DNA from: Thermodesulfobium acidiphilum
Lineage (GTDB): Bacteria; Thermodesulfobiota; Thermodesulfobiia; Thermodesulfobiales; Thermodesulfobiaceae
Direction: 5' to 3'
Length of the DNA: 64,000 bases
Assembly: GCF_003057965.1 (NCBI RefSeq)
Contig: NZ_CP020921.1
Location: 1 to 64,000, forward strand
Position numbers and translations under genes: made by a program. This document shows positions 19,278-58,467 of the stretch, one piece after another. Position 1 is the first letter of the stretch, and the number at the start of each line of letters is the position of its first letter. The notes under the pieces are model-generated. The model was given only the letters and a program-made list of their open reading frames with translations, searched no databases and had not been told where the DNA came from.

Positions 19278-20044
19278 TTGATATATCCCTTTTTTGGGAT
19301 ATGCTAATCCGATCTTTAATGCCAATACTTAGATTTTCTGGCTTTTTTGCTGTTGCTCCGTTTTTTAGCACTCAAGTCATACCAACAAGAATTAAGATTT
19401 TAATAATTTTAATTTTTTCTATGCTTATTACTATGAACATAAAGATAAACGTTCCTGATAATCCAATAGTTTTTGTTTTTTCCTCGGTATTTGAGGTTTT
19501 AATAGGAATTTTTATGGGGTTTATCTTTTATCTTTTTTTATGGATCCTCGAATTTGCAGGGGGCTTTTTTGATATGCAATCAGGAATGGGTATGGCTGCA
19601 TTCTACGATCCCCAAATGGGTTCTGAGACATCCGTTTATGGCAATTTTTTTACTTTACTGGGCCTTTTAATATTTTTAATTGGAAATTTTCACTACATTC
19701 TTTTAAAAATTTTTGTTGAAAGCTATTATGTATTACCTGTTGGCCAATTTATAAAATCTGGACCCTCTTATAACCTTTTAATGAGCGTTTTGATATGGAC
19801 GATGACAGCGGGTCTGGAGATGGCTTTGCCAGTTGTCTTAATTTTGTTTCTTATAGACCTGAGTCTGGGAATAATGGCTAGAACTGCTCCACAGCTGAAC
19901 GTCTTATTACTTGGTTTACCTTTAAAGATTCTAATAACCAGCGTTGTAATAATAATATTTTTGGGATTTGCAGTGCCATTTATAAATCAATGTTTCAATT
20001 ATATGAATAACGTTTCTATGGGGTTAATCAATGCCCTTCGATGA
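19274..20044 (+). CDS. fliR: Flagellar export gate protein FliR
   Basis: FliR completes the FliPQR helical gate. The 256-residue protein has six or so hydrophobic segments, the early motif LRFSGFFAVAPFFSTQVIPTRIK shortened here as SGFFAVAPFF, and the family segment GGFFDMQSGMGMA near residue 97. It overlaps fliQ by four bases and flhB by 14 bases. Order fliQ-fliR-flhB is standard. No fliR-flhB fusion is present. Confidence 0.94.
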   Translation: MIDISLFWDMLIRSLMPILRFSGFFAVAPFFSTQVIPTRIKILIILIFSMLITMNIKINVPDNPIVFVFSSVFEVLIGIFMGFIFYLFLWILEFAGGFFDMQSGMGMAAFYDPQMGSETSVYGNFFTLLGLLIFLIGNFHYILLKIFVESYYVLPVGQFIKSGPSYNLLMSVLIWTMTAGLEMALPVVLILFLIDLSLGIMARTAPQLNVLLLGLPLKILITSVVIIIFLGFAVPFINQCFNYMNNVSMGLINALR

Positions 20045-21080
20045 AGGAGACAGGACAGAACCCGCTACAGAAAGAAGAAGACGAGAGGCTAGAAAAATGG
20101 GGCAGGTGGCAAAATCACAGGAGTTATCCAGTATTCTAGTATTCTTTGGAAGCTACATTGTTTTACAATTTTTTTTAGTCATAGGTTTTAATAGCTGGTT
20201 CAATGTATGGAAAGGTTTTTTTTCCTTTGACAACTTTGATTTAAACTTATATTATCACAATTTTATAGTGGCTTTTTTGCTTCTTACAGTTCCGCCAATA
20301 ATAGGCGCTCTCTTTATGGCACTTTTTTCAAACATATTGCAGGTTGGTTTTGTAATAACCCCACAGGTCTTAATGCCAAAATTTTCCAATCTTGATATAA
20401 CAAAATATTTTAAAAGGTTATTATCTTTTAGAGGCTTTGTTGACCAGGTTTTAAAACCTACAATTAAGATACTGATTCTTGCATATATTCTAATTTCTTC
20501 TTTGTTGGAAGTTTCCCCAGAAATTTTGAATCTCAGTTTCATAGATATTCATAAAGGATTTCAAATTGTAATAAAGATTGTCTCATCAATTCTCGTAAAA
20601 ACTATGGTGGTGTTGTTTTTCTTTGCTTTAATTGACTATCTTTTTCAAAGATGGCAATATGAAAAGAGTATTAGAATGAGCAAACAGGAACTAAAAGAGG
20701 AATTTAAAAATACAGAAGGAGATCCTCTTATAAAAGCAAGAATAAAGAGATTACAAGGTGAAATGGCTAGAAGAAGAATGATGCAAGAAGTGCCCAAAGC
20801 TGATGTTATTATAACCAACCCTACTCACGTAGCAGTTGCCATATTCTACGATCCAGAAAAGTTTAAGGCTCCAAAAGTAGTAGCCAAGGGAATGGGAATA
20901 ATAGCTGAAAGGATTATTCAAATTGCTAAAGAAAATAATGTTCCATTAGCGAGAAATGAAACTCTTGCAAGAGCTTTATTTAAAGAAGTAGAAATTAATT
21001 TCGAAATTCCCGAAAAATTTTATAAAGCTGTTGCAGGCATTTTGGCTACTGTTTACAAGAAAAGAAAGAAGGTGATTTAA
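20031..21080 (+). CDS. flhB: Flagellar export switch protein FlhB
   Basis: FlhB switches substrate specificity of flagellar export from rod/hook to filament proteins. The N-terminal part carries the TEPATERRRREARKMGQ segment and four membrane helices. The cytoplasmic domain contains the self-cleavage site NPTH, with cleavage expected between N263 and P264. Length 349 is typical. The start lies within fliR. The gene ends TAA at 21078-21080, and the very next codons in the same frame encode an FlhX-like domain. The usual downstream flhA, flhF and flhG are not found in this window. Confidence 0.95.
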   Translation: MPFDEGDRTEPATERRRREARKMGQVAKSQELSSILVFFGSYIVLQFFLVIGFNSWFNVWKGFFSFDNFDLNLYYHNFIVAFLLLTVPPIIGALFMALFSNILQVGFVITPQVLMPKFSNLDITKYFKRLLSFRGFVDQVLKPTIKILILAYILISSLLEVSPEILNLSFIDIHKGFQIVIKIVSSILVKTMVVLFFFALIDYLFQRWQYEKSIRMSKQELKEEFKNTEGDPLIKARIKRLQGEMARRRMMQEVPKADVIITNPTHVAVAIFYDPEKFKAPKVVAKGMGIIAERIIQIAKENNVPLARNETLARALFKEVEINFEIPEKFYKAVAGILATVYKKRKKVI

Positions 21081-21344
21081 TTTAAAAAAAGAGTTGTAGC
21101 TCTAAAATACGATAAATCAAAAGGACCCCCAAGGGTCATAGCTAAGGGACAGGATGAACTTGCTGAAAGGATTATAAATATAGCAAGAAGTCATAATGTT
21201 CCCGAAATAAAGGACCCAAAACTCCTTGCAGATCTATACAAAGTTAACGTTGGTGACGATATACCAGTAGGACTATATGAGGCAGTTGCAAAAATAATTG
21301 CCCGAATATATCTTTTGAAGGGCAAAAAGGGCGTTGACCAATGA
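21081..21344 (+). CDS. FlhX-like protein (FlhB C-domain homologue) without a standard start codon
   Basis: An open frame of 87 sense codons follows the flhB stop with no gap and in the same frame. It reads FKKRVVALKYDKSKG, then PRVIAKGQDELAERIINIARSHN and VGLYEAVAKIIARIYLL when split. This matches the stand-alone FlhX/YlqH family, homologues of the FlhB cytoplasmic domain that can partly substitute for it. No ATG, GTG or TTG precedes the conserved part; the first codon after the stop is TTT. AAGGTGA at 21069-21075 is spaced five bases from that TTT, where relatives would have a start. Options are near-cognate initiation, reinitiation, stop readthrough from FlhB, or a point mutation. The coding pattern is clear; expression is uncertain. 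Confidence 0.68.
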   Translation, partial: FKKRVVALKYDKSKGPPRVIAKGQDELAERIINIARSHNVPEIKDPKLLADLYKVNVGDDIPVGLYEAVAKIIARIYLLKGKKGVDQ

Positions 21345-54409: not shown

Positions 54410-54886
54410 TTGAAGAAGAGTTTGTTATTGTTTGTTTGTGCAATTTTAGTTTTGTTTACATTTCAAACTAAGGCGATGGCAAAAGACAATGTAATTGCTT
54501 ATATTGATCTTGTAAGAGTTGAGGCTGGAGTAAACGAGTTAAAACCTCTTATTGATCAAAAGAATCAGGTTGAAATCCAGTTTGAACAACTAAGAAATCA
54601 AAAGCAACAAGAATTTGCTCAAGCTCAAGCATCAGGAGAATCTCAAGAACAGTTAAAAAAGTTGTACGATCAGATCAACCAGGAGCTTGCTGCTAAAGAA
54701 AAAGAAGTAGAGGCTGCAAGGGCTGCTATAGATGCAAAGCTGCAAACTGTACTCCCCAAAATTAAGAATGCTATTGATTCTGTAGCAAAGCAAGTTGGAG
54801 CTTCGATAGTTTTGGATAACGCTATCGTTTGGTGGGGAGGCGTAGATATTACTGATCAGGTAATAGCTAAGGTGAATGGTCAGTAA
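54410..54886 (+). CDS. skp: OmpH/Skp family periplasmic chaperone
   Basis: Skp carries unfolded outer-membrane proteins through the periplasm to BamA. The 158-residue protein has a signal peptide (KKSLLLFVCAILVLFTFQ, cleavage near AMAKD), a short strand IAYIDLVRV, a long helical arm rich in glutamine, glutamate and lysine (about 50-120), and a closing strand ASIVLDNAIVWWGGVDIT, here cited in part. The TTG at 54410 follows AAAGGAGGG; an upstream in-frame TTG would add 15 residues before the signal. It lies after bamA and overlaps lpxD, the typical order. Confidence 0.86.
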   Translation: MKKSLLLFVCAILVLFTFQTKAMAKDNVIAYIDLVRVEAGVNELKPLIDQKNQVEIQFEQLRNQKQQEFAQAQASGESQEQLKKLYDQINQELAAKEKEVEAARAAIDAKLQTVLPKIKNAIDSVAKQVGASIVLDNAIVWWGGVDITDQVIAKVNGQ

Positions 54887-55916
54887 ACTTTTATCTGAAA
54901 TAGCTAAAGAAGTTGGCGGAGTATTAAGAGGTGAAGATTTAGAAGTTACCGATATTAAACCTCTTAATATAGCGCTTGAGAAAGATCTAAGCTTTGTTTT
55001 AGATAAAGCTAACTCTGAGGCATCCCGGTTCTCTAAGGCGGGTGCCTTTCTTTGTTATAGAGGTTTTGAATCAGACAGGGCTACTATTGAGGTTGATTTG
55101 CCAAAATTGGCGTTGTCAAAGGTTCTTAATATCTTTTACCCAAGAAATTTTAGAGAACCCTTAATTCACACGAGTTCTGTAATATCCGAAGGGGCTAAAA
55201 TTTCTAGTAAGGCATATGTTGGACCATATTGTGTTATAGAGGATGGAGCTGTTATAGAGGATATGGTTGAGCTTGTTGCCTTTATTTATGTAGGCAAAGA
55301 TGTCTATATAGGTAAAGGCACAAGGATATTTCCATTTGTATGCATTAGAGAAAAGTGTAGAATTGGTGAAAATTGTGTAATCCAAGCAGGAGCAACTATA
55401 GGAAATGACGGCTTTGGTTATGCTACTGACTCTTACGGTCATCACACGTGGATTCCTCAAATAGGTGGCGTTTCAATAGGTAGTGAAGTAGATATAGGTT
55501 CGAACACTACCATAGATAGGGGATCGTTTGTTGATACCATTATAAAAGACAATGTTAAGGTTGACAATTTAGTTCAAATTGCTCATAACTGTATCCTTGA
55601 AAAAAGCGTTATTCTTGTTTCTATGGTTGGTTTATCTGGATCTGTTCACGTTAAAGAAAATGCTGTTCTTGCTGGTAAAGTAGGAGTAAAGGATCACTTG
55701 ACAATTGGGAAGGGTGCTACAGTTCTTGCAAAATCAGGCCTTATGAAAGATGTTCCAGATGGTTCAACTGTTATGGGATATCCGGCGAGACATTACATAG
55801 ATTTTTTCAAAGAGAGGATATTAATAGAAAGGCTTCCTGAAATTGAAAAGAGAATTAAAAAACTGGAAGAACAAATTGAGATTTTAAAGTGCCAGGATAA
55901 ATCAGAAGAAGTATAA
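54876..55916 (+). CDS. lpxD: UDP-3-O-acylglucosamine N-acyltransferase LpxD
   Basis: LpxD adds the N-linked hydroxyacyl chain in lipid A synthesis. Seen: an N-terminal uridine-binding domain (residues 1-95), then a left-handed beta-helix of hexapeptide repeats (IGENCVIQAGATIG, GSEVDIGSNTTIDRG), the catalytic histidine segment VQIAHNC near residue 233 and a C-terminal helix. Length 346 is normal. The start ATG lies within the skp gene, 10 bases before its stop. It is followed by an unknown secreted-protein gene and then lpxC. Confidence 0.94.
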   Translation: MVSKLLSEIAKEVGGVLRGEDLEVTDIKPLNIALEKDLSFVLDKANSEASRFSKAGAFLCYRGFESDRATIEVDLPKLALSKVLNIFYPRNFREPLIHTSSVISEGAKISSKAYVGPYCVIEDGAVIEDMVELVAFIYVGKDVYIGKGTRIFPFVCIREKCRIGENCVIQAGATIGNDGFGYATDSYGHHTWIPQIGGVSIGSEVDIGSNTTIDRGSFVDTIIKDNVKVDNLVQIAHNCILEKSVILVSMVGLSGSVHVKENAVLAGKVGVKDHLTIGKGATVLAKSGLMKDVPDGSTVMGYPARHYIDFFKERILIERLPEIEKRIKKLEEQIEILKCQDKSEEV

Positions 55917-55972: not shown

Positions 55973-56437
55973 GTGAAAAAATTAATAATTTTAAAGTGTT
56001 TTTTTGTTATTACAGCTTTAATTTTGTTATCTATGACTTCTTTTTCTCAGGATGCCTTCTCGTCTAATCTTGTAGAAGAGTACCCAAACGCTTCAGTTGA
56101 TTGGGGCAAAAATCAGATAACTGCTATAGGCTTTGGAGTGGGAGGTTTTAATAGCACTGATCCATTTAAAAGTTCGTATGAGGCGGCAATGAATAATGCA
56201 AAAGAAAGAATGATCTCTGTAGTAATGATGCTAAAGGACTCGAATGGGGTAAGTTTAAAGCATTTTCTGTCTAATCCTGAAAATATGAACAAGCTAAAAG
56301 CCTGGATTGAAACTCTTGACATTAAGGTTCTAAAATATTCGGACAATAGCGTTAAAGTTATATTAACTGGAACTTTGAAAGATGAACCAGATTCTTTAGA
56401 AAAAGCACTTGGAGTTGAGCTGCAATCTCCAAATTAA
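55973..56437 (+). CDS. Secreted protein of unknown function between lpxD and lpxC
   Basis: The 154-residue product has a signal peptide (residues 1-26, cleavage near FSQD) and one compact domain. The segment ITAIGFGVGGF and the alanine-rich helix AAMNNAKERMISVVMML resemble small periplasmic proteins of the LPP20 type, but I would not assign it. There is no lipobox cysteine, so it is probably soluble in the periplasm. GTG start at 55973 follows TAGGAGGAAAA. Its last codons overlap the inferred start of lpxC, so it may help translate that gene. Confidence 0.65.
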   Translation: MKKLIILKCFFVITALILLSMTSFSQDAFSSNLVEEYPNASVDWGKNQITAIGFGVGGFNSTDPFKSSYEAAMNNAKERMISVVMMLKDSNGVSLKHFLSNPENMNKLKAWIETLDIKVLKYSDNSVKVILTGTLKDEPDSLEKALGVELQSPN

Positions 56438-57219
56438 ATAGAGCAATCTTTGAAGGTATTGGAATTCATACCGGTAAAACTTGTAAGGTTATGGTTTATC
56501 CATCGAATGGGGGACTCTGGATAAAAAAGGGCGATATGCTTTTTTCGAATCTTCATGACATGATTGTACCTTCTGAAAACGCAACTGTTTTGGAAAACGA
56601 CTACTTAAGGCTCTCGACTGTTGAGCATCTTTTGTGTGCTCTTGCAATGTTAAACGTTAATGATGCGGTAATTGAGATTTTGGACGGGGAAGAGGTCCCG
56701 ATTTTAGACGGAAGTGCTATAAAATTTTATAAAGATCTATCTGATATCTTTTCAAAAAAGTATAAGAAAAATATCTTAAGATCAATTAAGCAACCAATAT
56801 TTTATATAGAAGACGAATCTTTTGTTTATATGTTCCCGTATAAAAGGTTTGAGGTTAGAGTTTATCTGGACTATACCTCTAAGGGGCTTGGTCTTCTTAG
56901 CGACGAGTTTATCCTGGGACGAGATAAGAGAGAATCCATTTTAAACGCAAGAACTTTCGGATTTCTCTCAGATTATGAATTGTTAAAATCAAAGGGAAAA
57001 GCGCTTGGGGCAAACTTTGACAATGTGCTTGTATTCGATAACAAGGGAAGGTCATTAAAGAAGATGAGAAGTTTGAAGGAAGTGCAAAGACACAAAATCC
57101 TTGATTTTATTGGAGATCTTTACCTTAACGGTTTTTTACCACGTGCGCAGATAGTGGCTGTTAAACCTGGACATAAAATAAACGCTAAAGTAAGCAAGAT
57201 GATAAATTCGTTCGTATAG
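56425..57219 (+). CDS. lpxC: UDP-3-O-acyl-N-acetylglucosamine deacetylase LpxC, non-canonical start
   Basis: LpxC catalyses the committed zinc-dependent deacetylation in lipid A synthesis. Conserved segments are FEGIGIHTGK near residue 9-18, STVEHLLCAL with zinc ligand H68, and RHKILDFIGDL with ligands H223 and D227. The zinc positions count from an ATC at 56425. The first canonical start in this frame is ATG at 56491, which would remove the conserved FEGIGIHTGK segment. Between the upstream stop (56416-56418) and 56491 there is no ATG, GTG or TTG. GGAG at 56411-56414 lies 10 bases before the ATC at 56425, the most likely start. The domain is otherwise intact and between lpxD and fabZ, so it is a real gene; start is inferred. 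Confidence 0.85.
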   Translation: MSKLNRAIFEGIGIHTGKTCKVMVYPSNGGLWIKKGDMLFSNLHDMIVPSENATVLENDYLRLSTVEHLLCALAMLNVNDAVIEILDGEEVPILDGSAIKFYKDLSDIFSKKYKKNILRSIKQPIFYIEDESFVYMFPYKRFEVRVYLDYTSKGLGLLSDEFILGRDKRESILNARTFGFLSDYELLKSKGKALGANFDNVLVFDNKGRSLKKMRSLKEVQRHKILDFIGDLYLNGFLPRAQIVAVKPGHKINAKVSKMINSFV

Positions 57220-57254: not shown

Positions 57255-57680
57255 TTGTACGATATAAACGACATTATGAAGGTTTTGCCCCATAGATATC
57301 CAATGCTTTTGGTTGAAAAGATACTTGAATTAGAGCCAAACGTTAGAGCAGTCGGTTTAAAAAACGTTTCAAATAACGATCCGTATTTAGTAGGACATTT
57401 TCCAGATAATCCTATTTTTCCAGGAGTTCTTATGGTTGAAGCAATGGCTCAGGTTGCAGGATTTCTGTCTCTTGTATCTCTGAAAAAGGAAGGAACAATT
57501 GCGTTTTTTAGCTCTGTCGAAAGGGCAAAATTTAGAAAAGTTGTAAGGCCAGGTGATACGCTTATTATGGAAGCTAAGGTAACGAAGGTAAAGTTGCCGT
57601 TTTGTAAGATGAGCTGTACTGCTAAGGTTGAGGATAAATTGGTGTGCGAAGCAGAACTTATGTTTTATCTTCCAAAATAA
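57255..57680 (+). CDS. fabZ: 3-hydroxyacyl-ACP dehydratase FabZ
   Basis: FabZ dehydrates beta-hydroxyacyl-ACP and controls the balance of fatty acids against hydroxyacyl chains for lipid A. Seen: LPHRYPMLLVEK, catalytic H48 in VGHFPDNP and E62 in VEAMAQVAG of the hot-dog fold. Length 141 is normal. TTG start at 57255 has GAGGAGGT upstream. It is flanked by lpxC and lpxA, the usual arrangement, and the stop is one base from the lpxA ATG. Confidence 0.95.
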   Translation: MYDINDIMKVLPHRYPMLLVEKILELEPNVRAVGLKNVSNNDPYLVGHFPDNPIFPGVLMVEAMAQVAGFLSLVSLKKEGTIAFFSSVERAKFRKVVRPGDTLIMEAKVTKVKLPFCKMSCTAKVEDKLVCEAELMFYLPK

Positions 57681-57681
57681 T

Positions 57682-58467
57682 ATGATTAGAGTTCATTCTA
57701 CCTCAATAGTATCGCCTAAAGCTATAGTAGGAGAGGGAGTTGAAATTGGCCCCTTTTGTATTGTTGATGACGATGTTGTAATTGGAGACAATACCCGTTT
57801 AGCTAATAATGTCCTACTCAAAAATGGTACTAGAATTGGCAAGAGCTGCTATATATCTACTGGTTCTTGTCTAGGGCAAGAACCTCAGGATTTCCACTTT
57901 AAAGGTGAAAAAAGTTTTGTAAGAATTGCTGATAACGTTACTATAAGAGAATATGTAGTTATACACAAGGCTACAGGTGAAGGAGAAGAAACATACGTTG
58001 GTGAAAACTCTTATCTAATGTGTTTTACTCACCTTGGTCATAATGCAAAAGTTTATGAGAATTGCACGTTAGCTGCATATGTGGTGCTGGGAGGCCATGT
58101 AGTTGTAGAAAGGGAGGCATTTTTAGGTGGGGCTTCTGCATTTCATCAGTTTGTAAGAGTAGGAAGGATGTGTATGGTAGGCGGGCTTGCAAAGGTAGTT
58201 CAAGACATCCCCCCGTTTGTGATGTGTGACGGAAATCCTGCAAGGCCAAAGGGATTAAACCTGGTAGCTTTAAGGAGAAATAATTTTTCTCAGGAAAAAA
58301 TAAGCGCAATAAAAAGAATATATAAGATTTTAGTAGAGGAGGTTCACTCAAAAGAAGAATTGATAGAAATCTTAAAACGTGACTTTTCAAAATATGAGGA
58401 ACATAAAGATTTTGTTGATTTTATTATAAAAAGCAAAAGGGGTTTTAGGCGTGTTCAAGATAAATGA
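57682..58467 (+). CDS. lpxA: UDP-N-acetylglucosamine acyltransferase LpxA
   Basis: LpxA transfers the first hydroxyacyl chain to UDP-GlcNAc, starting lipid A synthesis. The 261-residue protein has hexapeptide repeats (VSPKAIVGEGVEIGPF, VVIGDNTRLANN), the QEPQDFHFKGE motif, and the catalytic histidine region LMCFTHLGHNAKV near 118-130. The C-terminal helical domain is present. I start it at the ATG at 57682 directly after fabZ, which gives the usual MIRVHSTS beginning; the frame is open further upstream. Its end overlaps kdsA by 17 bases. Confidence 0.94.
   Translation: MIRVHSTSIVSPKAIVGEGVEIGPFCIVDDDVVIGDNTRLANNVLLKNGTRIGKSCYISTGSCLGQEPQDFHFKGEKSFVRIADNVTIREYVVIHKATGEGEETYVGENSYLMCFTHLGHNAKVYENCTLAAYVVLGGHVVVEREAFLGGASAFHQFVRVGRMCMVGGLAKVVQDIPPFVMCDGNPARPKGLNLVALRRNNFSQEKISAIKRIYKILVEEVHSKEELIEILKRDFSKYEEHKDFVDFIIKSKRGFRRVQDK

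Follow-up and report, generated by a model that had tools for sequence, protein, structure and literature searches.

The lpxC locus

The window analysed here is a stretch of 64,000 nucleotides from Thermodesulfobium acidiphilum (contig NZ_CP020921.1, positions 1 to 64,000 of the forward strand). It contains a gene for a putative LpxC, which is flanked by lpxD on one side and by fabZ-lpxA-kdsA on the other; a single gene to which no family was assigned sits directly before it. The coordinates of the main features are collected in Table 1.

Table 1. Features at the lpxC start and its surroundings, with one small ORF from the chromosome survey.
Feature	Coordinates	Strand	Remarks
lpxD	54876-55916	+	TIGR01853, 302.6 bits
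Upstream gene	55973-56437	+	N-terminus resembling a signal peptide (by eye); AGGAGG ahead of its GTG start; final codons shared with the lpxC start
Predicted hairpin enclosing the Shine-Dalgarno-like site and AUC	56409-56432	+	-8.3 kcal/mol, z -1.65
GGAGTTGA, Shine-Dalgarno-like	56411-56418	+	6-nt spacer to ATC; one mismatch to the assumed anti-Shine-Dalgarno sequence
TGA closing the lpxC frame	56416-56418	+	kept in 4/4 species
ATC, proposed lpxC start codon	56425-56427	+	invariant in 4/4 species; no ATG, GTG or TTG between TGA and codon 23 or 38
lpxC, UDP-3-O-acyl-GlcNAc deacetylase (predicted)	56425-57219	+	264 codons counted from ATC, 30.1 kDa; PF03331, E 6e-58
First in-frame ATG of lpxC	56491-56493	+	first ATG/GTG/TTG in this species; GAG in 2/4 species
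fabZ	57255-57680	+	TTG start; NF000582, 179.7 bits
lpxA	57682-58467	+	NF003657, 301.5 bits
Small ORF	151989-152207		ATT behind GAGGTGAT; found by Shine-Dalgarno scan, outside the 29-gene set

At 264 amino acids the lpxC product is short and divergent. It scores well above the Pfam cut-off for PF03331 (196.9 bits against 27) and falls below that of the NCBIfam equivalog TIGR00325 (156.7 bits against 187.25), so that the name rests on the Pfam match, the solved relatives and the gene order. Solved LpxC chains align with the AUC-started protein from residue 6 on, and the alignment takes in the blocks TVEH, RHK..D..GD and, near the C-terminus, GH, which we take to be the active-site blocks. The protein is probably an LpxC deacetylase, its activity being a prediction.

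The reading frame runs TGA(56416-18) GCT GCA ATC(56425-27) TCC AAA TTA AAT AGA GCA ATC TTT GAA GGT ATT GGA ATT CAT ACC GGT. The conserved segment FEGIGIHTGK thus lies between the TGA and the ATG at 56491, and the alignment with the solved chains, which begins at residue 6, likewise places the conserved N-terminal stretch and its HTG motif upstream of that ATG. A preliminary description of the locus had located this segment ahead of the first canonical start and had the frame closed by a stop at 56416; direct reading of the frame bears out both points.

Conservation of the start region

Four species of the phylum were compared, T. acidiphilum included. The LpxC proteins of the other three are 90, 80 and 80% identical to that of the window. 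In all four species the frame is closed by TGA, followed by two codons and an invariant ATC. Numbered from that ATC, no ATG, GTG or TTG comes until codon 23 in two species and codon 38 in the other two. The two codons preceding ATC vary among the species in the lpxC frame (GCT/ACT and GCA/ACA); from ATC through the end of the upstream TAA there are no base changes at all. ATG 56491 is not a conserved start, two of the four species having GAG at this place.

Beyond the overlap and ahead of the first canonical start, 15 of the 18 LpxC residues are identical to those of the sister species. The substitutions ahead of the first canonical start fall at codon positions 1, 2 and 3 in the numbers 1, 3 and 5, a pattern before 56491 that is only mildly coding-like; it is the protein alignments that carry the point. 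Identity of the start codon itself should be read with care. Internal isoleucine codons are identical in 37 of 72 cases, giving 0.07 for four of four, and start-codon identity in four genes across four species is little better than this; alone it would be weak evidence.

Outside the phylum, LpxC loci from 26 of 30 matching genomes were compared, and in all 26 the open frame that holds the aligned region has a canonical codon either at that region or upstream of it; the nearest such codon is 45 codons off in one locus, and in two others the near ones are perhaps internal to long fused frames. Agreement among the four species of the phylum, together with the canonical codons in all 26 loci outside it, indicates that the lpxC start is neither an error nor the norm of the family. 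A sequencing error as the source of the absent start is ruled out, since four genomes agree. The comparison of related genomes that the preliminary description had proposed thus returned the same layout throughout and no correction that would mend the frame. Its central statement, a gene without a canonical start that is otherwise intact, is upheld by the four species, by the match to PF03331 and by the alignment with the solved chains.

The proposed initiation site

The Shine-Dalgarno-like site ahead of ATC takes the form GGAG/GGGG-UUGA: it is replaced by GGGGTTGA in the three other species, where it has the same 6-nt spacer. As stated earlier for this site, the ATC lies ten bases after GGAG (56411-56414). 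The anti-Shine-Dalgarno sequence was assumed to be the standard one, as no 16S gene could be located: the SSU model found none in the T. acidiphilum genome, a pattern for the 16S 3' tail had no match in the four genomes, and a looser version of it gave scattered matches only, in a number not far above the control. In the same four genomes infC has GGAGGTGA, 5 nt and then ATA, by which measure the AUC of lpxC sits at the proper position for a start.

The upstream gene matches none of the families of Pfam and NCBIfam at an E-value of 0.001. Its TAA (56435-56437) begins 10 nt after the first base of ATC, so that the lpxC start falls inside the end of this gene, again as first described. A hairpin enclosing the Shine-Dalgarno-like site and the AUC is predicted in all four species, at -8.3, -7.6, -5.9 and -5.9 kcal/mol (z -1.65, -2.21, -1.39 and -0.66); the folding of a longer, 76-nt piece around the start is not special (z 0.36). 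The overlap and the weakly predicted hairpin suit translational coupling, and on these two features initiation at lpxC is probably coupled to the upstream gene.

Candidate non-canonical starts elsewhere in the chromosome

IF3 discriminates against AUU, AUC and AUA, here called AUH, but not against AUG, GUG and UUG, which for this reason are termed canonical (excerpt of PMC4611024). A survey of 444 kb of the chromosome (25%), window included, against the matching stretches of the sister genome yielded 458 conserved ORF pairs and 410 credible genes. Seven of the 410 genes lack a canonical start that could serve in this species and have an AUH codon at Shine-Dalgarno distance: lpxC, infC, livH, a gmhB-like phosphatase, a GNAT acetyltransferase, an MscS-type channel and a small ORF. 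At least 10 aligned, non-overlapped codons precede the first canonical start of either genome in 29 of the 410, and six of these 29 (the seven genes less the small ORF) were counted as AUH. By eye, the other 23 are genes with a conserved leader ahead of a canonical start, shadows of the tRNA or antisense kind, or ambiguous cases.

The ATA of infC is present in all four species, and the GTG of this gene falls inside its Shine-Dalgarno sequence. The GNAT acetyltransferase has ATT behind AGGAGG in all four, with the start one codon later in two. In livH, ATT follows GGAGTGATTTTACA in the four species; an internal TTG occurs at codon 6 in two of them and at codon 12 in two, and the Pfam match starts before codon 12. 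The gmhB-like gene likewise has ATT in four of four species, here after AGGAG, and two of the four carry an extra in-frame TTG, either 8 codons before ATT and ahead of the Shine-Dalgarno sequence or 2 codons before it. The latter, which is close behind the Shine-Dalgarno sequence in one species, may be used as a start, and livH and the gmhB-like gene would seem to be the less clean cases. For the MscS-type channel and the small ORF the evidence comes from just two species. For the channel, ATA stands behind AAGGAGGT, and a canonical codon is first reached 115 codons on here and 83 in the sister; for the small ORF, a GTG lies within the Shine-Dalgarno sequence here, and the sister has no canonical codon before codon 21.

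If the sample is fair, these counts extrapolate to about 28 AUH genes genome-wide (Poisson range 11 to 58). When codons at Shine-Dalgarno distance are tallied without bias, ATH shows no excess (21 against 32.5 expected in the strict form, 40 against 51.4 in the looser one), so that the class is a small minority resting on single genes. The 353 positions at strict distance comprise ATG 75, TTG 38 and GTG 11 times, and UUG looks to be a frequent start in this genome.

Four further genes were left out of the count. Two are transporters: an MFS-type gene (1268123-1269352, +), which may start at AUU here, where the sister could use ATA, and an ABC transporter-like gene (1348599-1350377, +), which may start at AUA and has a TTG abutting its Shine-Dalgarno sequence. 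The others are the gene at 1239028-1239759 and an HNH-like gene at 132686-133222. A gene at 1227278-1228252 (-), threonine dehydratase-like by eye, has its 5' part cut off by a stop, the sister frame being open over 413 codons; it is probably a broken gene and was not counted as AUH. At 69592-69970 (+) two short ORFs correspond to segments of two long proteins encoded in the sister genome and are perhaps remnants of a larger gene.

Within the window, two of the ORF pairs listed were judged to have a conserved coding frame that no canonical start could open, lpxC and an FlhB-like ORF of 87 codons (21078-21344, +; PF01312). The latter follows directly, and in the same frame, on the TAA of the ORF at 20028-21080. 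No ATG, GTG or TTG precedes codon 79 here, and the other three species have GTG at codon 6; after GGTGATTTAA two species begin with TTT and the other two with GTC. Either readthrough of the stop or a non-canonical start may lie behind this arrangement.

Initiator tRNA and IF3

It has been noted that small changes in the recognition of the initiator alter start choice (excerpt of PMC11497404). Among the 42 tRNAs typed, three have the anticodon CAU, and one of these has the C1-A72 mismatch and the three G-C pairs typical of an ordinary initiator. Within the sequence covered, its normal appearance speaks against an odd initiator tRNA as the cause of the AUH starts.

IF3 reads AQDF in all four species, at a place where the aligned chains 5me0, 5lmn and 8jsg read ARKF, IKRF and LIRF. 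The aspartate precedes the conserved phenylalanine, where the three solved factors carry arginine or lysine; the basic residue that it replaces is presumably R116 in E. coli numbering. As a cause of relaxed start choice this residue would be a lead only.

Interpretation of the lpxC start

The absence of a canonical start is real as a fact of the sequence, and the AUC at 56425 is the best candidate for the codon used. We consider it highly probable that lpxC is translated from this codon, and that in this it follows a habit of the genus. The Shine-Dalgarno-like GGAGUUGA would position the AUC in the P site, where the ordinary initiator fMet-tRNA would be accepted despite the mismatch at the third base, giving a protein that begins (f)Met-Ser-Lys-Leu-Asn. 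Ribosomes arriving from the upstream gene would melt the weak hairpin and, stopping 10 nt past the lpxC start, would allow coupled initiation. AUU, AUC and AUA would start roughly 2% of genes in the genus, behind Shine-Dalgarno sequences; lpxC is apparently one instance of these frequent AUH starts, at a rate taken from this genus alone.

The overlap seems to have shaped the lpxC start, perhaps together with coupling. ATC spans CAA TCT of the upstream frame, and a change to ATG would turn the serine (TCT) of the upstream protein into cysteine (TGT). The start may accordingly be frozen: AUG would be barred by the exchange of serine for cysteine near the upstream C-terminus, and coupling would make a weak start tolerable. 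This is compatible with translation from AUC as a habit of the genus, and we regard it as a serious possibility that falls somewhat short of even chances. The unchanged bases from ATC to the upstream stop speak for it, but they come from four species only, and at such divergence their identity may be chance. About equally tentative is the proposal that checking of the third base is relaxed throughout the genus, perhaps through an altered IF3, with AUU, AUC and AUA regular in tens of genes including lpxC and the whole set tuned together by IF3.

The preliminary description had put forward, as a possibility, a limiter built into lpxC: the AUC would hold down the committed enzyme of lipid A synthesis, much as AUU does for infC. 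On this reading the AUC would be kept by selection, and the level of IF3 would set LpxC output. The parts of this claim that concern the locus, namely the absent canonical start, the Shine-Dalgarno-like site and the AUC conserved in four species, have held, and output from the AUC would presumably be lowered. In favour of a limiter, the non-canonical starts of S. aureus cvfC1, ccpN and citZ brought reporter output down to about 10-30% of that of AUG (excerpt of PMC13009471). What finds no support is peculiarity to lpxC. Six more genes look alike in the quarter of the chromosome sampled, most of them unlinked to lipid A by family, so that the start can be explained without a limiter reserved for LpxC; these bases are, moreover, under constraint from the overlapping upstream gene. 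To our knowledge, LpxC has no link to start-codon checking. Selection for such a limiter, itself compatible with translation from AUC as a habit of the genus, is in our view rather unlikely.

The remaining alternatives fare worse. Another in-frame codon of the overlap could serve as the start, for example TTA 56434, which is likewise conserved; its Shine-Dalgarno spacer would be 15 nt, against the 5 nt of the infC ATA in the same genomes, which makes this choice improbable. A -1 ribosomal frameshift from the upstream gene would yield a fusion and leave lpxC with no start of its own, in keeping with the -1 frame of lpxC and the 19 nt from its TGA to the upstream TAA, but no X XXY YYZ slippery heptamer was found by eye in 56419-56437 and the fusion would give a cytoplasmic enzyme a signal peptide, so that we hold it to be very improbable. 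Least credible of all is an N-terminally short LpxC from ATG 56491, which has in its favour that this is the first canonical codon in this species, but which would start at a GAG in two of the four species and lose the FEGIGIHTG that aligns in the solved LpxC chains.

Relation to known AUH starts

AUH starts are already known singly, in infC, pcnB and ccpN, and have mostly been viewed as rare curiosities. The AUU of E. coli pcnB, which shares with lpxC a chromosomal location and an AUH start and differs in gene and function, reportedly limits expression and is said to be the second chromosomal example. Deinococcus deserti, a member of another lineage, is said to use non-canonical initiation codons to an unusual degree; its starts reportedly come from proteomics, those presented here from sequence comparison. 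There is also a likeness to infC itself, which has AUU or AUA, is essential and carries a strong Shine-Dalgarno sequence ahead; lpxC differs from it in the weaker Shine-Dalgarno site and in the overlap of its start with the preceding gene. In S. aureus, AUA is used for infC, ccpN and citZ and AUU for cvfC1, with extended Shine-Dalgarno sequences ahead of the ccpN, citZ and cvfC1 starts, and infC is autoregulated by its own product (excerpt of PMC13009471). According to the same excerpt, start-site mapping gave four such sites there, infC included, whereas the seven candidates found here come from comparison only, over a quarter of the genome.

A literature search, with most subscription journals outside its reach, gave, among the papers listed, no report of non-canonical starts in lpxC or in Thermodesulfobium, and the number of apparent AUH starts described here, lpxC among them, appears to be new. 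In 2010, infC with its ATT was described as wrongly predicted in most genomes of enterobacteria (excerpt of PMC3091656). If the present reading is true, gene finders limited to ATG, GTG and TTG would miss such genes here or call them too short, and a lineage with several unrelated genes, that of the committed enzyme of lipid A included, that depend on AUH starts would offer a natural system for studying how start-codon fidelity evolves and what purpose the discrimination by IF3 serves.
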